A stretch of DNA of 33,831 nt. Source: Candidatus Moraniibacteriota bacterium (GTDB lineage: Bacteria > Patescibacteriota > Minisyncoccia > Moranbacterales > GWC2-37-73). The notes beneath the pieces were generated by a model. It ran no database searches. It had not been told where the DNA came from and saw only the letters and a program-made list of their open reading frames with translations. Shown one piece after another: positions 7,333 through 29,043 of the stretch. Both the position numbers and the translations under genes were made by a program. Within the stretch, counting starts at the first letter, position 1, and each line of letters starts with the position of its first letter. Location of the stretch: NCBI GenBank assembly GCA_013336225.1, contig JAAXUC010000011.1:1-33831 (forward strand), written 5' to 3'.

Positions 7333-7360
7333 TTGACAAGAAGAACATTTCTGATAGTAT
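7333..7360 (+). promoter_or_regulatory. Promoter TTGACA-16-TAGTAT of the leader transcript
   Basis: A consensus -35 (7333-7338) is separated by 16 bases from TAGTAT (7355-7360), which has an upstream TG (extended -10). The expected start is around 7367, giving a transcript of about 140 bases to the terminator at 7482-7505. Confidence 0.75.
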
Positions 7361-7372
7361 GAATATAAACTT

Positions 7373-7453
7373 ATGCAAAAACAATCCTATACATTTTTTA
7401 TGTTTTGGTTTACTGGCCTCCAAGGTCGGTTTGTTTTTGCGAAGAATGAATAA
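7373..7453 (+). CDS. Putative aromatic-rich leader peptide (26 aa)
   Basis: A short ORF beginning about 6 bases after the predicted transcription start. It encodes a peptide containing SYTFFMFWFTGLQGRFVF, with 6 Phe, 1 Trp and 1 Tyr in 26 residues. This resembles phe/trp leader peptides, whose translation senses charged tRNA levels. The last third of the ORF overlaps a segment that can pair with the downstream terminator. No Shine-Dalgarno is present. That it is translated is inferred from promoter, ORF and RNA geometry; it is not recognised as a named leader. Confidence 0.55.
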   Translation: MQKQSYTFFMFWFTGLQGRFVFAKNE

Positions 7454-7505
7454 ACGAGAAATTTCATTGACCGCAGACATAAACTGACCTTGGGTCAGTT
7501 TTTTT
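7420..7505 (+). promoter_or_regulatory. Candidate attenuator: antiterminator versus terminator
   Basis: CCAAGGTCGGTTT (7420-7432) can pair with AAACTGACCTTGG (7481-7493) over 13 bp including one G-U. That pairing consumes the 5' arm of the terminator AACTGACC / GGTCAGTT (7482-7489, 7493-7500). A ribosome stalled on the Phe/Trp codons at 7394-7411 would leave 7420-7432 free, while one reaching the stop at 7453 would cover it. This is the classic attenuation geometry. The controlled gene would be the one at 7730, about 225 bases downstream. Confidence 0.5.
7482..7505 (+). terminator. Intrinsic terminator of the leader transcript
   Basis: An 8-bp perfect stem AACTGACC / GGTCAGTT with loop TTG and a run of seven T. 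Confidence 0.85.
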
Positions 7506-7564
7506 ATTGTTATTTAAAAATCAAGTGCACATCGTTTGCTTTGTTTGTTTCCTTTTTAGGCACA

Positions 7565-7680
7565 TTTTTGTTTCACCTGCTTTCTCTTGAGAGCACATTC
7601 GTAGCCGAAAATCTATGGCTACTCACTCGGACCTCGCTCTCGCTCGCTACGGCTTCAATAAAAAACAGGTGAAACAAAAA
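7565..7680. repeat. Foldback element A (family of five)
   Basis: A perfect 15-bp terminal inverted repeat (TTTTTGTTTCACCTG at 7565-7579 with its complement at 7666-7680) encloses an inner hairpin GTAGCC / GGCTAC (7601-7606, 7617-7622) with loop GAAAATCTAT. GTTTCCTTTTTAGGCACA at 7547-7564, just before it, matches the left end of the other members, so this may be one element nested beside a fragment of another. It lies between the leader terminator and the 7730 gene. Most similar to element E at 28861. Confidence 0.75.
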
Positions 7681-7729
7681 CCGTGTAGTGCATGTGACTA
7701 ATCAAATACATTGCCAAAAGGAGGCAAAA

Positions 7730-8056
7730 ATGAATGAGGAAAAAACAAGATTCATGGAGTTTAGGGCACTGGGGAATAATTGTTTGGATTGTGGTTTCAG
7801 CTTGTCTGGCCGTATGCACACAGTTGGCAGCGAAATTTGCTTGAAAATTGAGCAGGAACTTCGCGGAGGGACTTTAGATATTGATATTCAAAATGACAGA
7901 ATTCATTTTGTTTTCGGGGGAGTCACTATTGGTTTCTCTGAAAGACCAGAAAGGCTCTCAGCCATTAAGCAAATGCTTGAGATGGGAAGGCAGCTTCTTT
8001 GTCAGCCATACCAGGACGCCAACTCAAGCGGTTTTGCCTTAATGGTGAGAGATTGA
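7730..8056 (+). CDS. Small soluble protein of unknown function with strong SD
   Basis: 108 residues. The ATG at 7730 is chosen because AAAAGGAGG (7716-7724) lies 5 bases upstream; a longer in-frame start at 7688 would ignore this site. The protein has a CLDC pair near its N-terminus (NNCLDCGFSLSG), a central beta-rich part (TLDIDIQNDRIHFVFGG) and a helical C-terminal part. There is no signal peptide or membrane helix. The family is not recognised. It sits downstream of the aromatic leader and terminator, so its expression might depend on attenuation, and a strong terminator follows it. A strong Shine-Dalgarno is unusual among its neighbours. Confidence 0.7.
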   Translation: MNEEKTRFMEFRALGNNCLDCGFSLSGRMHTVGSEICLKIEQELRGGTLDIDIQNDRIHFVFGGVTIGFSERPERLSAIKQMLEMGRQLLCQPYQDANSSGFALMVRD

Positions 8057-8081: not shown

Positions 8082-8113
8082 AAAAAGGGGTTTGAAAATT
8101 CAAACCCCTTTTT
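8082..8113 (+). terminator. Intrinsic terminator after the 7730 gene
   Basis: AAAAAGGGGTTTG pairs with CAAACCCCTTTTT across AAAATT, ending in a T-run. Symmetric enough to work in both directions. Confidence 0.9.
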
Positions 8114-8175: not shown

Positions 8176-8748
8176 ATGAAACTAAACAAAAATACTTTTG
8201 AAATAATTTTCTTTGCGCGAGGTGGACAGGGAGCCAAGACTGCTTCTGAACTTATTGCGCATGCAGCTGTGCGTGAGGGAAAATTTGTGAAAGCCTTCCC
8301 ATTTTTTGGGCCTGAAAGATCTGGCGCGCCGACCAAAATGTTTTTGCGGGTGTCTGACAAAGAAATCAGAACGCAGGAACCAGTGACTGATCCTGATGTG
8401 GTGGTGGTGCTGGATGAAACAGTTATGGACTCTCAGGATGTGGCCAAAAATTTGGATCAGCATGAAGTGCTCATTGTAAATTCAACCAATGACAAAGAAA
8501 CAATCAGAAAAAGAGTGCCACATTTTGAAGGTTCAATTCACGCTGTTGATGGTAATGGAATTTCCGCTGACATCATTGGAAAACCAAATCCAAATATGGT
8601 GCTCATTGGTCATTTGATCAAGATTTCAGAAATTGTTTCCCTGGAAAGTGCAGCAGAAATTTTTCGCGAAGTTTTCACGGAAAAAATCGGCAAAGATCTG
8701 ACCGAAAAAAACATCAAAGCCATGGAAGCTGGATACGACTCGTTGTAG
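8176..8748 (+). CDS. porG: 2-oxoacid:ferredoxin oxidoreductase, gamma subunit
   Basis: 190 residues, the usual length of PorG. The start FEIIFFARGGQGAKTASELIA is the family hallmark (GRGGQG-type), followed by GPERSGAPTKMFLRVSD and DPDVVVVLDE. The gamma subunit helps form the CoA-binding face of the four-subunit pyruvate/ketoisovalerate:ferredoxin oxidoreductase, which decarboxylates a 2-oxoacid to acyl-CoA with reduction of ferredoxin. It is first in the order G-D-A-B, as in the archaeal and Thermotoga-type enzymes. Pyruvate versus branched 2-oxoacid specificity cannot be settled from sequence. No Shine-Dalgarno. Confidence 0.93.
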   Translation: MKLNKNTFEIIFFARGGQGAKTASELIAHAAVREGKFVKAFPFFGPERSGAPTKMFLRVSDKEIRTQEPVTDPDVVVVLDETVMDSQDVAKNLDQHEVLIVNSTNDKETIRKRVPHFEGSIHAVDGNGISADIIGKPNPNMVLIGHLIKISEIVSLESAAEIFREVFTEKIGKDLTEKNIKAMEAGYDSL

Positions 8749-8759
8749 AACAACGAGAA

Positions 8760-8890
8760 TGTCAAAATCCAAATGACAAATTTCAAATAAATGTCTTAAT
8801 GATTCAGCGAATGAGAATTAAGATTTAGGATTTTAGATTTTATTTGATATTGAGATTTTGGAATTTGGATTTAAAATCTGAAATTATTCG
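8760..8890. repeat. AT-rich dispersed repeat, copy 1
   Basis: The spacer between porG and porD. It contains AAAATCCAAATGAC (8764-8777), whose exact complement occurs in copy 3 at 12476-12489. AATTTGGATTT near its right end gives it an internal inverted repeat. No ORF is supported here. Confidence 0.6.
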
Positions 8891-8917
8891 TGAAATTAAA
8901 TAAATAAGAAAACCAAT

Positions 8918-9178
8918 ATGGAGAAAGGCGGTATAATTAAACACGATTTAAGCAAGTCACCTAAGACGGGAGATTGGGCATATGCAAAGCCTGAAGTTGA
9001 TAAGGACAAATGCATTGGCTGCGAGACATGTGCAATGTATTGTCCAGATGGTTGCATTGAAATGATCAAACATAAAGAAGATGCAAAAAATAAAGCTGAC
9101 ATTGACTATGAATTTTGCAAAGGCTGTGGAGTTTGCGAGCAAGTCTGCCCCGTCAAAGCAATTTCCATGCGGAAATAA
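8918..9178 (+). CDS. porD: 2-oxoacid:ferredoxin oxidoreductase, delta (2[4Fe-4S]) subunit
   Basis: 86 residues. Two ferredoxin motifs are complete: CIGCETCAMYCP and CKGCGVCEQVCP, each CxxCxxCxxxCP, binding two [4Fe-4S] clusters. The N-terminal GDWAYAKPEVD is typical of PorD rather than of free ferredoxins. The subunit passes electrons from the catalytic A/B core to external ferredoxin. It lies between porG and porA but is separated from both by AT-rich spacers of 160-170 bases, unusual for genes of one enzyme. Confidence 0.93.
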   Translation: MEKGGIIKHDLSKSPKTGDWAYAKPEVDKDKCIGCETCAMYCPDGCIEMIKHKEDAKNKADIDYEFCKGCGVCEQVCPVKAISMRK

Positions 9179-9180
9179 CC

Positions 9181-9320
9181 TTGAAATTTTGAATTCTGAA
9201 TTTCGAATTTTGAATAAAATAAGAATGACATAATGTTTTAAACATTTGAAAATTAAATAATTAAAAATTGATTAAAAATTCAAAATTCAAAATTAAAAAT
9301 TAAAAATTTGATAGACTTAA
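9181..9320. repeat. AT-rich dispersed repeat, copy 2
   Basis: The spacer between porD and porA, made of iterations of AAAATTC-like units. In reverse complement it aligns with copy 3 through a TTTTTAATCAATTTT core and the spaced motifs AAATGTTT, TGTCATT and ATTTTATT. No coding potential is seen. Confidence 0.6.
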
Positions 9321-9339
9321 TTTATATCATCTTGAAATA

Positions 9340-10518
9340 ATGAATAACAAAACCATAAAAAACAAAACAAACATTAAGGCCTTGAATGGTGGTTATGCGA
9401 TGGCGGAAGCTCTGCGTCAGATTCATCCTGATGTGATGGCGGTATATCCAATAACCCCGCAAACCACAATCATTGAAACATATGCCAAGATGAAAGCGGA
9501 TGGTTTGGTCACAACTGAAATCATTCAAACTGAATCTGAGCATTCTGCCATGAGTGCAACCATCGGCGCTTGCAGCGCTGGAGCGCGCGCGGTGACTGCT
9601 TCCAGTTCGCAAGGACTTTTGCATATGGCTGAAACTTTGCCGGTTGTCAGTGGCTTAGGACTTCCAATTGTGATGTGTGTTTCTTCAAGAGCACTTTCTG
9701 CTCCACTTAACATTCACGGGGAACACGGCGATGTGATGGCAATTCGCGATTTTGGATGGGTGCAAATCTTCAGTGAACAAGCTCAGGATGCCTATGACAA
9801 CACCATAATTGCCCTCAGACTGGCCGAAATGGCGGGGGTGCCAGTTATGCCCATTATGGATGGTTTTCACACCTCGCACACCACAGAGCGCGTGGAAGTG
9901 CTTGAGGATGAAATTGTGGCCTCTTTTGTCGGGGAAAGGCAGGCTGAAAATGCTTTGACTGATCAAGAAAATCCTGTAACCATCGGAACTTTGGCTCTGC
10001 AGAACACATATTTCGACTTCAAGATTGATCAGGAGAAAAACATGCAAAAAACCAAGACTTTATACAAAAAAATCTGTGCTGAATATGGCAAAATTTCAGG
10101 CAGAAAGCACGGTCTCTTTGAAGCATATAAAATGAAAGATGCTGAAAACGTGATTGTGATGATGGGCGCCACAGCTGGCACAGTCAAAGACACGGTTGAT
10201 GCACTGCGCGCTGAAGGTAAGAAAGTTGGACTTTTGAAAATAAATTTATTCAGACCATTTCCATATAGGGAAGTGGGCGCCGAGCTTTCACATGCCAAAA
10301 ACATTGCTGTGCTTGATCGCGCCATGGCCTTCGGATCATTCCCACCACTATTCCAAGATATCTTGACCAGCATGCAAAGTGCCGGCAGCAAAAAGCATGA
10401 CATCGCCAGCTATATCTATGGCATCGGCGGTCGCGACACCATGCAAGCGCACATCGAAAAAGTTTTCAAAGATTTGGAGGATGGAGAGATTTCAAATAAA
10501 ATAAAATACTTGCAATAA
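9340..10518 (+). CDS. porA: 2-oxoacid:ferredoxin oxidoreductase, alpha subunit
   Basis: 392 residues, the normal length for PorA. The N-terminal domain carries GGYAMAEALRQIHPD, YPITPQTTIIE and TESEHSAMSATIGA, the motifs that contact the thiamine diphosphate pyrimidine and form the active-site channel; ASSSQGLLHMAE follows. The middle and C-terminal domain has VIVMMGATAGTVKD and INLFRPFPYREV, as in the transketolase C-terminal fold. Together with the beta subunit it makes the catalytic centre. The stop lies 5 bases before porB, so these two are certainly co-transcribed. Confidence 0.95.
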   Translation: MNNKTIKNKTNIKALNGGYAMAEALRQIHPDVMAVYPITPQTTIIETYAKMKADGLVTTEIIQTESEHSAMSATIGACSAGARAVTASSSQGLLHMAETLPVVSGLGLPIVMCVSSRALSAPLNIHGEHGDVMAIRDFGWVQIFSEQAQDAYDNTIIALRLAEMAGVPVMPIMDGFHTSHTTERVEVLEDEIVASFVGERQAENALTDQENPVTIGTLALQNTYFDFKIDQEKNMQKTKTLYKKICAEYGKISGRKHGLFEAYKMKDAENVIVMMGATAGTVKDTVDALRAEGKKVGLLKINLFRPFPYREVGAELSHAKNIAVLDRAMAFGSFPPLFQDILTSMQSAGSKKHDIASYIYGIGGRDTMQAHIEKVFKDLEDGEISNKIKYLQ

Positions 10519-10523
10519 AAAAT

Positions 10524-11426
10524 ATGAATAAAGAACTTACAAAAAAATTATCAGCGGGACATGCGACTTGTCAGGGATGTGGAATTCCGGCAATTGTGCG
10601 AGCAGTGCTTGGGGCAACTGACGAGCCAGTGATTGTGGCCAATGCCACTGGTTGTCTTGAAGTGACCACCACCATCTATCCATACACGGCCTGGAAAGTT
10701 CCATATGTGCACAGTGTGTTTGGAAATGCAGCGGCCACAGCTGCCGGGATTGATGCAGCGCAAAATGCACTTGTCAGAAGTGGAAAGATAAAAAAGAAAG
10801 CGAAAGTTGTCGTTTTTGGAGGAGATGGTGGAACATATGACATTGGACTGCAAGCACTTTCTGGCGCGCTGGAACGTGGACATGATTTCTTGTATGTGTG
10901 TTATGACAATGAAGGATATATGAACACTGGCGGACAGCGCTCTGGCGCAACTCCATATGGAGCTAACACGGAAACTGCTCCAGCTGGCGAAACTTCTTTT
11001 GGAAAAGCGCAACAAAGAAAAGATTTAATGGAAATTGTAAACGCTCATGGCATCAAATATTTGGCGCAATCAAATGTGGCATTTATTCATGATCTCAAAA
11101 AGAAAGCCAAAAAAGCTTTGGAAACAGAAGGTCCATCATTCTTGCTGGTGTTGCAACCGTGCACTCAACTTTGGAAATTTCCAACTTCGCAGTATGTGGC
11201 AGTGGGGAAATTGGCCACCGAAACAAACTTTTGGCCACTCTATGAAATTGAAGATAGAAAATATACAATCAACAACATTGTCAAAACTCCCAAGCCAATC
11301 GAGGAATTTCTAAAGACGCAAGGACGCTTCAAGCATCTTTTTAGCGATAAGAATAAAGAGGTGATTTCGAAAATACAATCTGAGGTCGATAAAAACTGGG
11401 AAAAATTGCAGAAGAAATGTATCTAG
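10524..11426 (+). CDS. porB: 2-oxoacid:ferredoxin oxidoreductase, beta (TPP-binding) subunit
   Basis: 300 residues. Cysteines C16, C19, C44 and C213 (TCQGC, TGC, QPC) fit the four ligands of the proximal [4Fe-4S] cluster. The thiamine diphosphate/Mg2+ motif is GGDGG (99-103) through DNEGYMNTGGQ (128-138). ATPYG and the Lys-rich C-terminal extension are as in archaeal-type PorB. All four subunits appear intact, so a functional enzyme is expected in a strictly or largely anaerobic cell. Confidence 0.95.
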   Translation: MNKELTKKLSAGHATCQGCGIPAIVRAVLGATDEPVIVANATGCLEVTTTIYPYTAWKVPYVHSVFGNAAATAAGIDAAQNALVRSGKIKKKAKVVVFGGDGGTYDIGLQALSGALERGHDFLYVCYDNEGYMNTGGQRSGATPYGANTETAPAGETSFGKAQQRKDLMEIVNAHGIKYLAQSNVAFIHDLKKKAKKALETEGPSFLLVLQPCTQLWKFPTSQYVAVGKLATETNFWPLYEIEDRKYTINNIVKTPKPIEEFLKTQGRFKHLFSDKNKEVISKIQSEVDKNWEKLQKKCI

Positions 11427-28808: not shown

Positions 28809-28860
28809 GGGTACTTGAAAGATCATACTTAATATATGGCTTTAGGAATAAAAGAAAACC

Positions 28861-28978
28861 ATTTTTGTTTCGCCTGCTTTCTCTTGAGAGTACGTTTCGC
28901 AGCCGAAATTCATGGCTGCTCACTCGGACCTCACTGTCGTTCGCTACGGCTTCAAGAAAAAACAGGTTTAACAAAAAT
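28861..28978. repeat. Foldback element E (family of five)
   Basis: The outer arm 28861-28876 pairs with 28963-28978 with a 3-base mismatch. Inner hairpin GCAGCC / GGCTGC (28899-28904, 28914-28919) has loop GAAATTCAT. It is the closest relative of element A, from which its inner stem differs by a compensatory A-T to G-C change. Confidence 0.8.
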
Positions 28979-29043
28979 CCTGTAGCAGAACAATCTTTTT
29001 TGCTAACCCATTTTACTTGAGCGTGCTAAATATGCGGCATGTG

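Follow-up and report, generated by a model that had tools for sequence, protein, structure and literature searches.

Coordinates refer to the forward strand of the window, which is the whole 33,831-nt stretch of DNA analyzed here (contig JAAXUC010000011.1, from a Candidatus Moraniibacteriota genome of 1.11 Mb). The region under study contains the following features, given with the evidence for them where this is specific.

7333–7360, plus strand: sigma-70-type promoter, TTGACA-16-TAGTAT, with an extended −10 (TG) (from sequence)
7373–7453, plus strand: leader ORF of 26 codons, MQKQSYTFFMFWFTGLQGRFVFAKNE* (from sequence; conserved in 12 genomes of the taxonomic family)
7375–7384, plus strand: strand 0, GCAAAAACAA, a perfect complement to 7431–7440 (from sequence)
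7394–7411, plus strand: regulatory codons FFMFWF (from sequence; the modelled switch boundary lies directly 3′ of them)
7412–7419, plus strand: strand 1, predicted by folding to pair with 7423–7430 (−8.7 kcal/mol)
7420–7450, plus strand: strand 2, the 5′ arm of the antiterminator (covariation, folding)
7463–7493, plus strand: strand 3, the 3′ arm of the antiterminator, whose distal end doubles as the 5′ arm of the terminator
7481–7505, plus strand: intrinsic terminator 3:4, with stem 7481–7501 and T tract 7499–7505 (−10.2 kcal/mol)
7563–7681, plus strand: 119-nt dispersed repeat with inverted ends, between attenuator and gene and outside the conserved element
7730–8056, plus strand: presumed target gene, encoding an uncharacterized 108-aa protein, with a strong Shine-Dalgarno sequence (AGGAGG)
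8082–8113, no strand assigned: bidirectional terminator closing the presumed regulated unit (terminator prediction)

A first-pass annotation, made from the letters of this DNA alone, had described a strong promoter, a 26-codon ORF with FFMFWF, a 13-bp alternative pairing (7420–7432 with 7481–7493) and a strong terminator in the arrangement of ribosome-mediated attenuation. All four parts were found where described, and the arrangement is supported by the conservation, covariation and modelled switching given below. The RNA 5′ end is predicted at ∼7366–7368, ∼6 nt upstream of the leader ATG, and inspection of the sequence revealed no Shine-Dalgarno motif in front of this codon. The antiterminator pairing from 7420 to 7493 extends well beyond the 13 bp first noted, to 27 pairs (15+6+6), and the 2:3 hairpin has a predicted energy of −34.3 kcal/mol, with the leader stop codon (7451–7453) in its apical loop. 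The element is a quasi-palindrome; RNA from 7366 to 7508 folds at −45 kcal/mol (z = −5.9), and none of 200 shuffled sequences was as stable. From its complementarity, strand 0 is a possible anti-antiterminator, and the minimum-energy fold in genomes G002, G003 and G005 is a pairing of the 0:2 type.

The gene at 7730 had been described as encoding an unknown 108-residue protein and as being neither an aromatic biosynthesis nor a tRNA-synthetase gene; the protein has no Pfam match at thresholds as loose as E≤1. Homologues occur within the genus at 62–23% identity. Its AlphaFold2 model, a confident one (pLDDT 85.7, pTM 0.78), matched no fold in the PDB at E≤0.001, and a sequence search of the PDB gave nothing usable. 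The repeat upstream of the gene has ∼17 other full-length or near-full-length copies in the genome (∼18 in total) at 85–97% identity, including a second copy in the window at 28860–28985. It is MITE-like, with inverted ends (TTTTTGTTTCACCTG...CAGGTGAAACAAAAA); it carries no plus-strand terminator, and it is absent between element and gene in genome G004. The terminator at 8082–8113 parts the 108-aa gene from genes resembling 2-oxoacid:ferredoxin oxidoreductase (8176–11426), the first of which retains the attenuator neighbourhood in several relatives.

Relatives were searched for the element at increasing taxonomic distance. Strong-scoring copies with covarying pairs were found in 12 of 19 genomes of the family; all five genomes of the same genus and six further family genomes carry it with high scores, and no copy was detected in several others. 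A pattern scan recovered the same element in relatives from Candidatus Moraniibacteriota/Moranbacteria and the Parcubacteria group. Aligned leaders include MQKQLQKFYTFSFFWFTGRQGLFVFANNE, MSINKPNHNLIQFMYFWFTGLHGRFVFANCE, MQKQIQKFAYSFFWFTGSADRFVFANNG and MQKHYQKFYFFFFWFTAALAGKFVFANNN. Tryptophan is invariant (12/12), and the pattern F/Y-x-F/Y-F-W-F is present in nearly all 12 copies, one of which reads AWL. The first-pass annotation had named, as results that would count against its reading, leader codons that are not aromatic in relatives and the loss there of the alternative stem. Aromatic residues are retained in nearly all 12 copies, and the stem is present and covaries, with 19 double-changed cells in the antiterminator versus 7.3 after shuffling; the terminator covaries too.

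A covariance model built from the 12 family copies (R1) matches 59 of 131 genomes of the order, and one built from 81 copies (R2) matches 79 of the 131. R2 also matches 50 of 384 genomes in a sample of the class (order included), where other families carry the element, and 26 of 333 in a sample of the phylum, 24 of them outside the class. Matches to the opposite strand (60–148 only) were discarded. Paired positions amount to 87% across the 81 copies versus 68% after shuffling; because the alignment was fitted to the structure being tested, slid controls were also scored, and these fall to 34–51%. Each of the 34 pairs shows covariation (522 double-changed cells versus 171 shuffled), and pairs of the upper stem exchange among G-C, A-U and U-A. 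The attenuator family is not in Rfam: neither the window nor 12 loci of the family contain an Rfam sRNA or amino-acid leader that attains gathering score, and scans at gathering and relaxed thresholds yielded sRNA matches at chance level only. Within the paper library searched, nothing relevant on attenuation or leader peptides in Patescibacteria/CPR came up.

The near-leaderless start is common to most copies. In 149 of 160 leaders from relatives, a −10-like box ends 2–25 nt upstream of the ATG, with 6 nt the commonest spacing, and a Shine-Dalgarno-like motif precedes only seven of the 160.

In more distant copies the RNA frame is constant and the leader amino acids differ. One isoleucine leader reads NIITISIIMICDII, and other runs include leucine (LLLLLL), valine (VVVVV), cysteine (CCCC) and asparagine/aspartate (NDNNDNDD), among others; several genomes carry tandem copies with differing residues. 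Copies mostly precede uncharacterized genes and often genes that make the cognate amino acid, which were identified with Pfam and NCBIfam. Isoleucine leaders precede citramalate synthase (L055; TIGR00977 equivalog, 752 bits) and a homologue of it scoring below the cutoff (L061), and a leucine leader precedes 2-isopropylmalate synthase (leuA; L178). The cysteine leaders CCCC (L199) and CCMC (L202) precede pyridoxal-phosphate enzymes interpreted as cysteine synthase, the assignment being by Pfam PALP only. Asparagine/aspartate leaders precede an Mqo-family oxidase (mqo; L072, L106 and L108), followed at L072 by a class I/II aminotransferase gene. Aromatic leaders precede prephenate dehydratase (pheA), prephenate dehydrogenase (tyrA) or DAHP synthase, as at L074, L091, L172, L183, L188, L198, L200, L208 and L212. 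L180, labelled tyrA-like from N-terminal sequence, has no Pfam match.

The match between leader codons and next gene was assessed by permutation, using 19 dereplicated loci and a background of 108 leader clusters. The mean cognate-residue fraction was 0.286, a value not reached in any of 100,000 permutations under either of two nulls (p≤1e-5), where gene labels were given after the leaders had been seen and cognate residues were set by biochemistry. The test included two serine loci (L192 and L211) and left out a proline locus (L196, with its gene 762 nt away); specificity for serine and for proline is only weakly indicated. Phylum loci outside the test include four aromatic leaders located 7–174 nt before biosynthetic genes, namely two DAHP synthases and two chorismate mutase/prephenate dehydratases. 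Synonymous codons vary inside the residue runs. Relative to long ORFs from the same loci, the leaders over-use CTA for leucine and GTC for valine, the former also being the codon that PMC1183508 describes as preferred in leu attenuators.

Several other neighbourhoods deserve mention. A ∼320-aa uncharacterized family (first gene at L083, L112, L157 and L158) and a ∼300-aa uncharacterized family (first gene at L056, L071 and L075) directly follow leaders of branched-chain or aromatic type, and in most cases the next gene is an M28 or an M20 peptidase, respectively; each pair is possibly a starvation-induced peptide-scavenging unit. Families of ∼370 and ∼430 aa without a Pfam match follow mixed or leucine-type leaders (L058, L066, L077 and L062), and some of these genes adjoin N-formylglutamate amidohydrolase genes. 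At L175 (7130–7271), a VWWWR leader with three successive tryptophan codons precedes a small uncharacterized protein with CxxC motifs and a 645-aa gene, and may be a tryptophan-specific member of the attenuator family. Extension of this family to histidine and tryptophan biosynthesis genes was considered and rejected: hisG occurs in 1 of 238 genomes, without the element, and two trp operons are preceded by T-box-like sequence.

To model the switch, terminator probability was calculated by equilibrium folding as a function of the point where RNA emerges from the ribosome, which was taken to cover 15 nt past the start of the P-site codon. With any FFMFWF codon of the window leader in the A-site, the predicted probability of the antiterminator is 0.83–1.00 (0.83 for F13) and that of the terminator 0.00. 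Thr14 gives a mixed state, and from Gly15 onward the terminator has a probability of 0.84–0.96 (0.84 for Gly15 itself), such that in thermodynamic terms it takes over two codons past the FFMFWF stall. A switch is predicted in 90 of 99 element clusters; the nine without one in this simple equilibrium model include the leuA leader. Among the 90, the switch boundary falls where the residue run stops (median 0.17 codon), and the stop codon lies past the boundary in every case. Run ends fall within three codons of the boundary in 70%, versus 53% after shuffling, and 0 of 5000 shuffles did as well. If no ribosome is present, the window RNA is predicted to settle into the antiterminator at equilibrium, and so termination must depend on translation or on co-transcriptional kinetics. 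The off state would then require either a ribosome translating across strand 2 or 0:2 and 1:2 pairs that form early.

From these data, all of which are computational, we conclude with a probability of roughly 0.9 that the region acts as a ribosome-mediated transcription attenuator sensing aromatic aminoacyl-tRNA. It would read charging of tRNA for phenylalanine first, with tryptophan and tyrosine codons also in the family consensus. Transcription would begin just 5′ of the leader ATG and the ribosome would load at the near-leaderless start. When aromatic aminoacyl-tRNA is scarce, the ribosome is predicted to pause on FFMFWF and mask strand 1, leaving strand 2 to pair with strand 3 once this is made. 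The terminator would then be blocked and RNA polymerase would continue into the gene at 7730. When supply is good, the ribosome would go on translating strand 2 until it meets the stop codon, which lies in the apical loop; its presence there would prevent 2:3 pairing, allowing 3:4 to fold and transcription to end at ∼7505. The analysis demonstrates the anatomy, its conservation and covariation, the placement of the codons and their match to adjacent genes; translation of the leader, switching in vivo, readthrough into 7730 and any role of the 108-aa protein are what we infer from the sequence and the models.

Three other explanations were weighed. The leader could encode a nascent-chain arrest peptide of the SecM/TnaC type, with FFWFTGLQGRFVFA itself jamming the ribosome on another signal. 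Within the family the peptide varies little, GRFVFA included, and its W...QG spacing is reminiscent of SecM. However, GRFVFA is encoded by strand 2 and would be untranslated at the predicted stall, the middle residues become runs of Ile, Leu, Val, Cys or Asn/Asp that match the downstream gene, and the codons within the runs vary synonymously; we consider arrest very improbable. A stand-alone sRNA of ∼140 nt that terminates at 7505, in which the ORF either has no role or specifies a small membrane peptide, would account for the separate promoter, the strong terminator and a repeat insertion that parts the element from the next gene. Counting against it are the copies located before cognate biosynthetic genes, the retention of reading frame and codon runs, covariation of the alternative 2:3 and 3:4 pairings, and the lack of any Rfam sRNA at gathering score in the window or at 12 loci of the family; it is judged a shade less probable still. 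Strands 1–2 and 3–4 are alike, both following ACTGRCC...GGTCRGT, as expected if the locus held two tandem decayed terminators, similar palindromes between which 2:3 complementarity arises incidentally. The 27-pair stem exceeds these palindromes, however, and covariation in its upper part among the 81 copies contradicts this explanation, which we regard as the least credible of all.

Two facts count against attenuation by aromatic supply at this locus: the presumed target has no aromatic function, and prephenate dehydratase was detected neither in this genome nor in the genus. The ribosome-free fold, the nine clusters with no predicted switch, the family genomes in which no copy was detected and the failed extension to tryptophan and histidine also weigh against the attenuator reading. 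The first-pass annotation had called such a target odd. At the level of the attenuator family it is explained, because other copies with aromatic leaders precede pheA, tyrA and DAHP synthase. Since prephenate dehydratase was not found, the switch in the window probably helps an auxotroph to respond to a lack of aromatic amino acids and does not control biosynthesis, and in this tiny, probably host-dependent bacterium it probably activates the next gene under such shortage. On our best reading, the element belongs to a modular family of attenuators that are mostly leaderless and extend across the phylum. We lean towards the broader view that this family is a main amino-acid sensor of Patescibacteria, controlling biosynthesis where it is retained and, in auxotrophic host-dependent lineages, uncharacterized small proteins, peptidase operons and other genes of scavenging or host interaction. 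If so, leader codons name the starvation signal of otherwise uncharacterized genes. Gene regulation in Patescibacteria is almost unstudied, and the codon run is a readable label of the inducing shortage, including for many small proteins without a known family. Sensing of nutrient shortage in reduced, auxotrophic cells thereby becomes directly testable.

As in other ribosome-mediated attenuators (principle in PMC1183508), the regulatory codons of the attenuator family are cognate to the regulated gene where this is known. The element shares with the attenuators of E. coli and Salmonella, of which pheL-pheA is nearest, a leader ORF, regulatory codons, protector, antiterminator and terminator strands, and a U tract. 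When R2 was run on six E. coli attenuator loci, its sole match was a marginal one to pheL/pheA (L261, 2579–2721; 24.4 bits, E=0.025), possibly reflecting common origin or convergence; the thr, leu, trp, his and ilv attenuators gave none. The Rfam Phe leader and other amino-acid leaders did not reach gathering score in the window or at 12 loci of the family. Unlike in E. coli, the ORF extends across strand 2, its stop codon falls within the apical loop, the antiterminator is much longer, leaders mostly lack a Shine-Dalgarno sequence and start at the RNA 5′ end, and one recognizable RNA frame serves many amino acids, with most targets uncharacterized.

The nearest leaderless parallel is that of the mycobacterial poly-cysteine short ORFs (PMC9031893, citing Canestrari et al. 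2020), which are amino-acid-responsive attenuators and likewise combine a leaderless short ORF with contiguous regulatory codons. Cysteine leaders are shared between the two, in our case those before cysteine synthase (CCCC and CCMC). According to PMC9031893, the mycobacterial ORFs act on translation of downstream genes, whereas the Patescibacteria element is a transcription terminator switch, found in another phylum and used for many amino acids.

Retuning of one attenuator frame among amino acids is usually considered a property of T-box riboswitches, which are also modular, with the amino acid set by the reading codon or codons. T-boxes bind tRNA directly, whereas the Patescibacteria element would use a translated ORF; neither a Rfam T-box match nor T-box sequence (AGGTGG...CGCGGG) was found in the window or at 12 loci of the family. 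By eye only, T-box-like AGGTGG...CCGCGGG was seen before two unrelated trp operons (L223, 1000–1560; L224, 4900–5550) in two other genomes of the class (G183 and G243), that of G183 including a trpS-like gene. Both systems therefore appear to coexist in the class.
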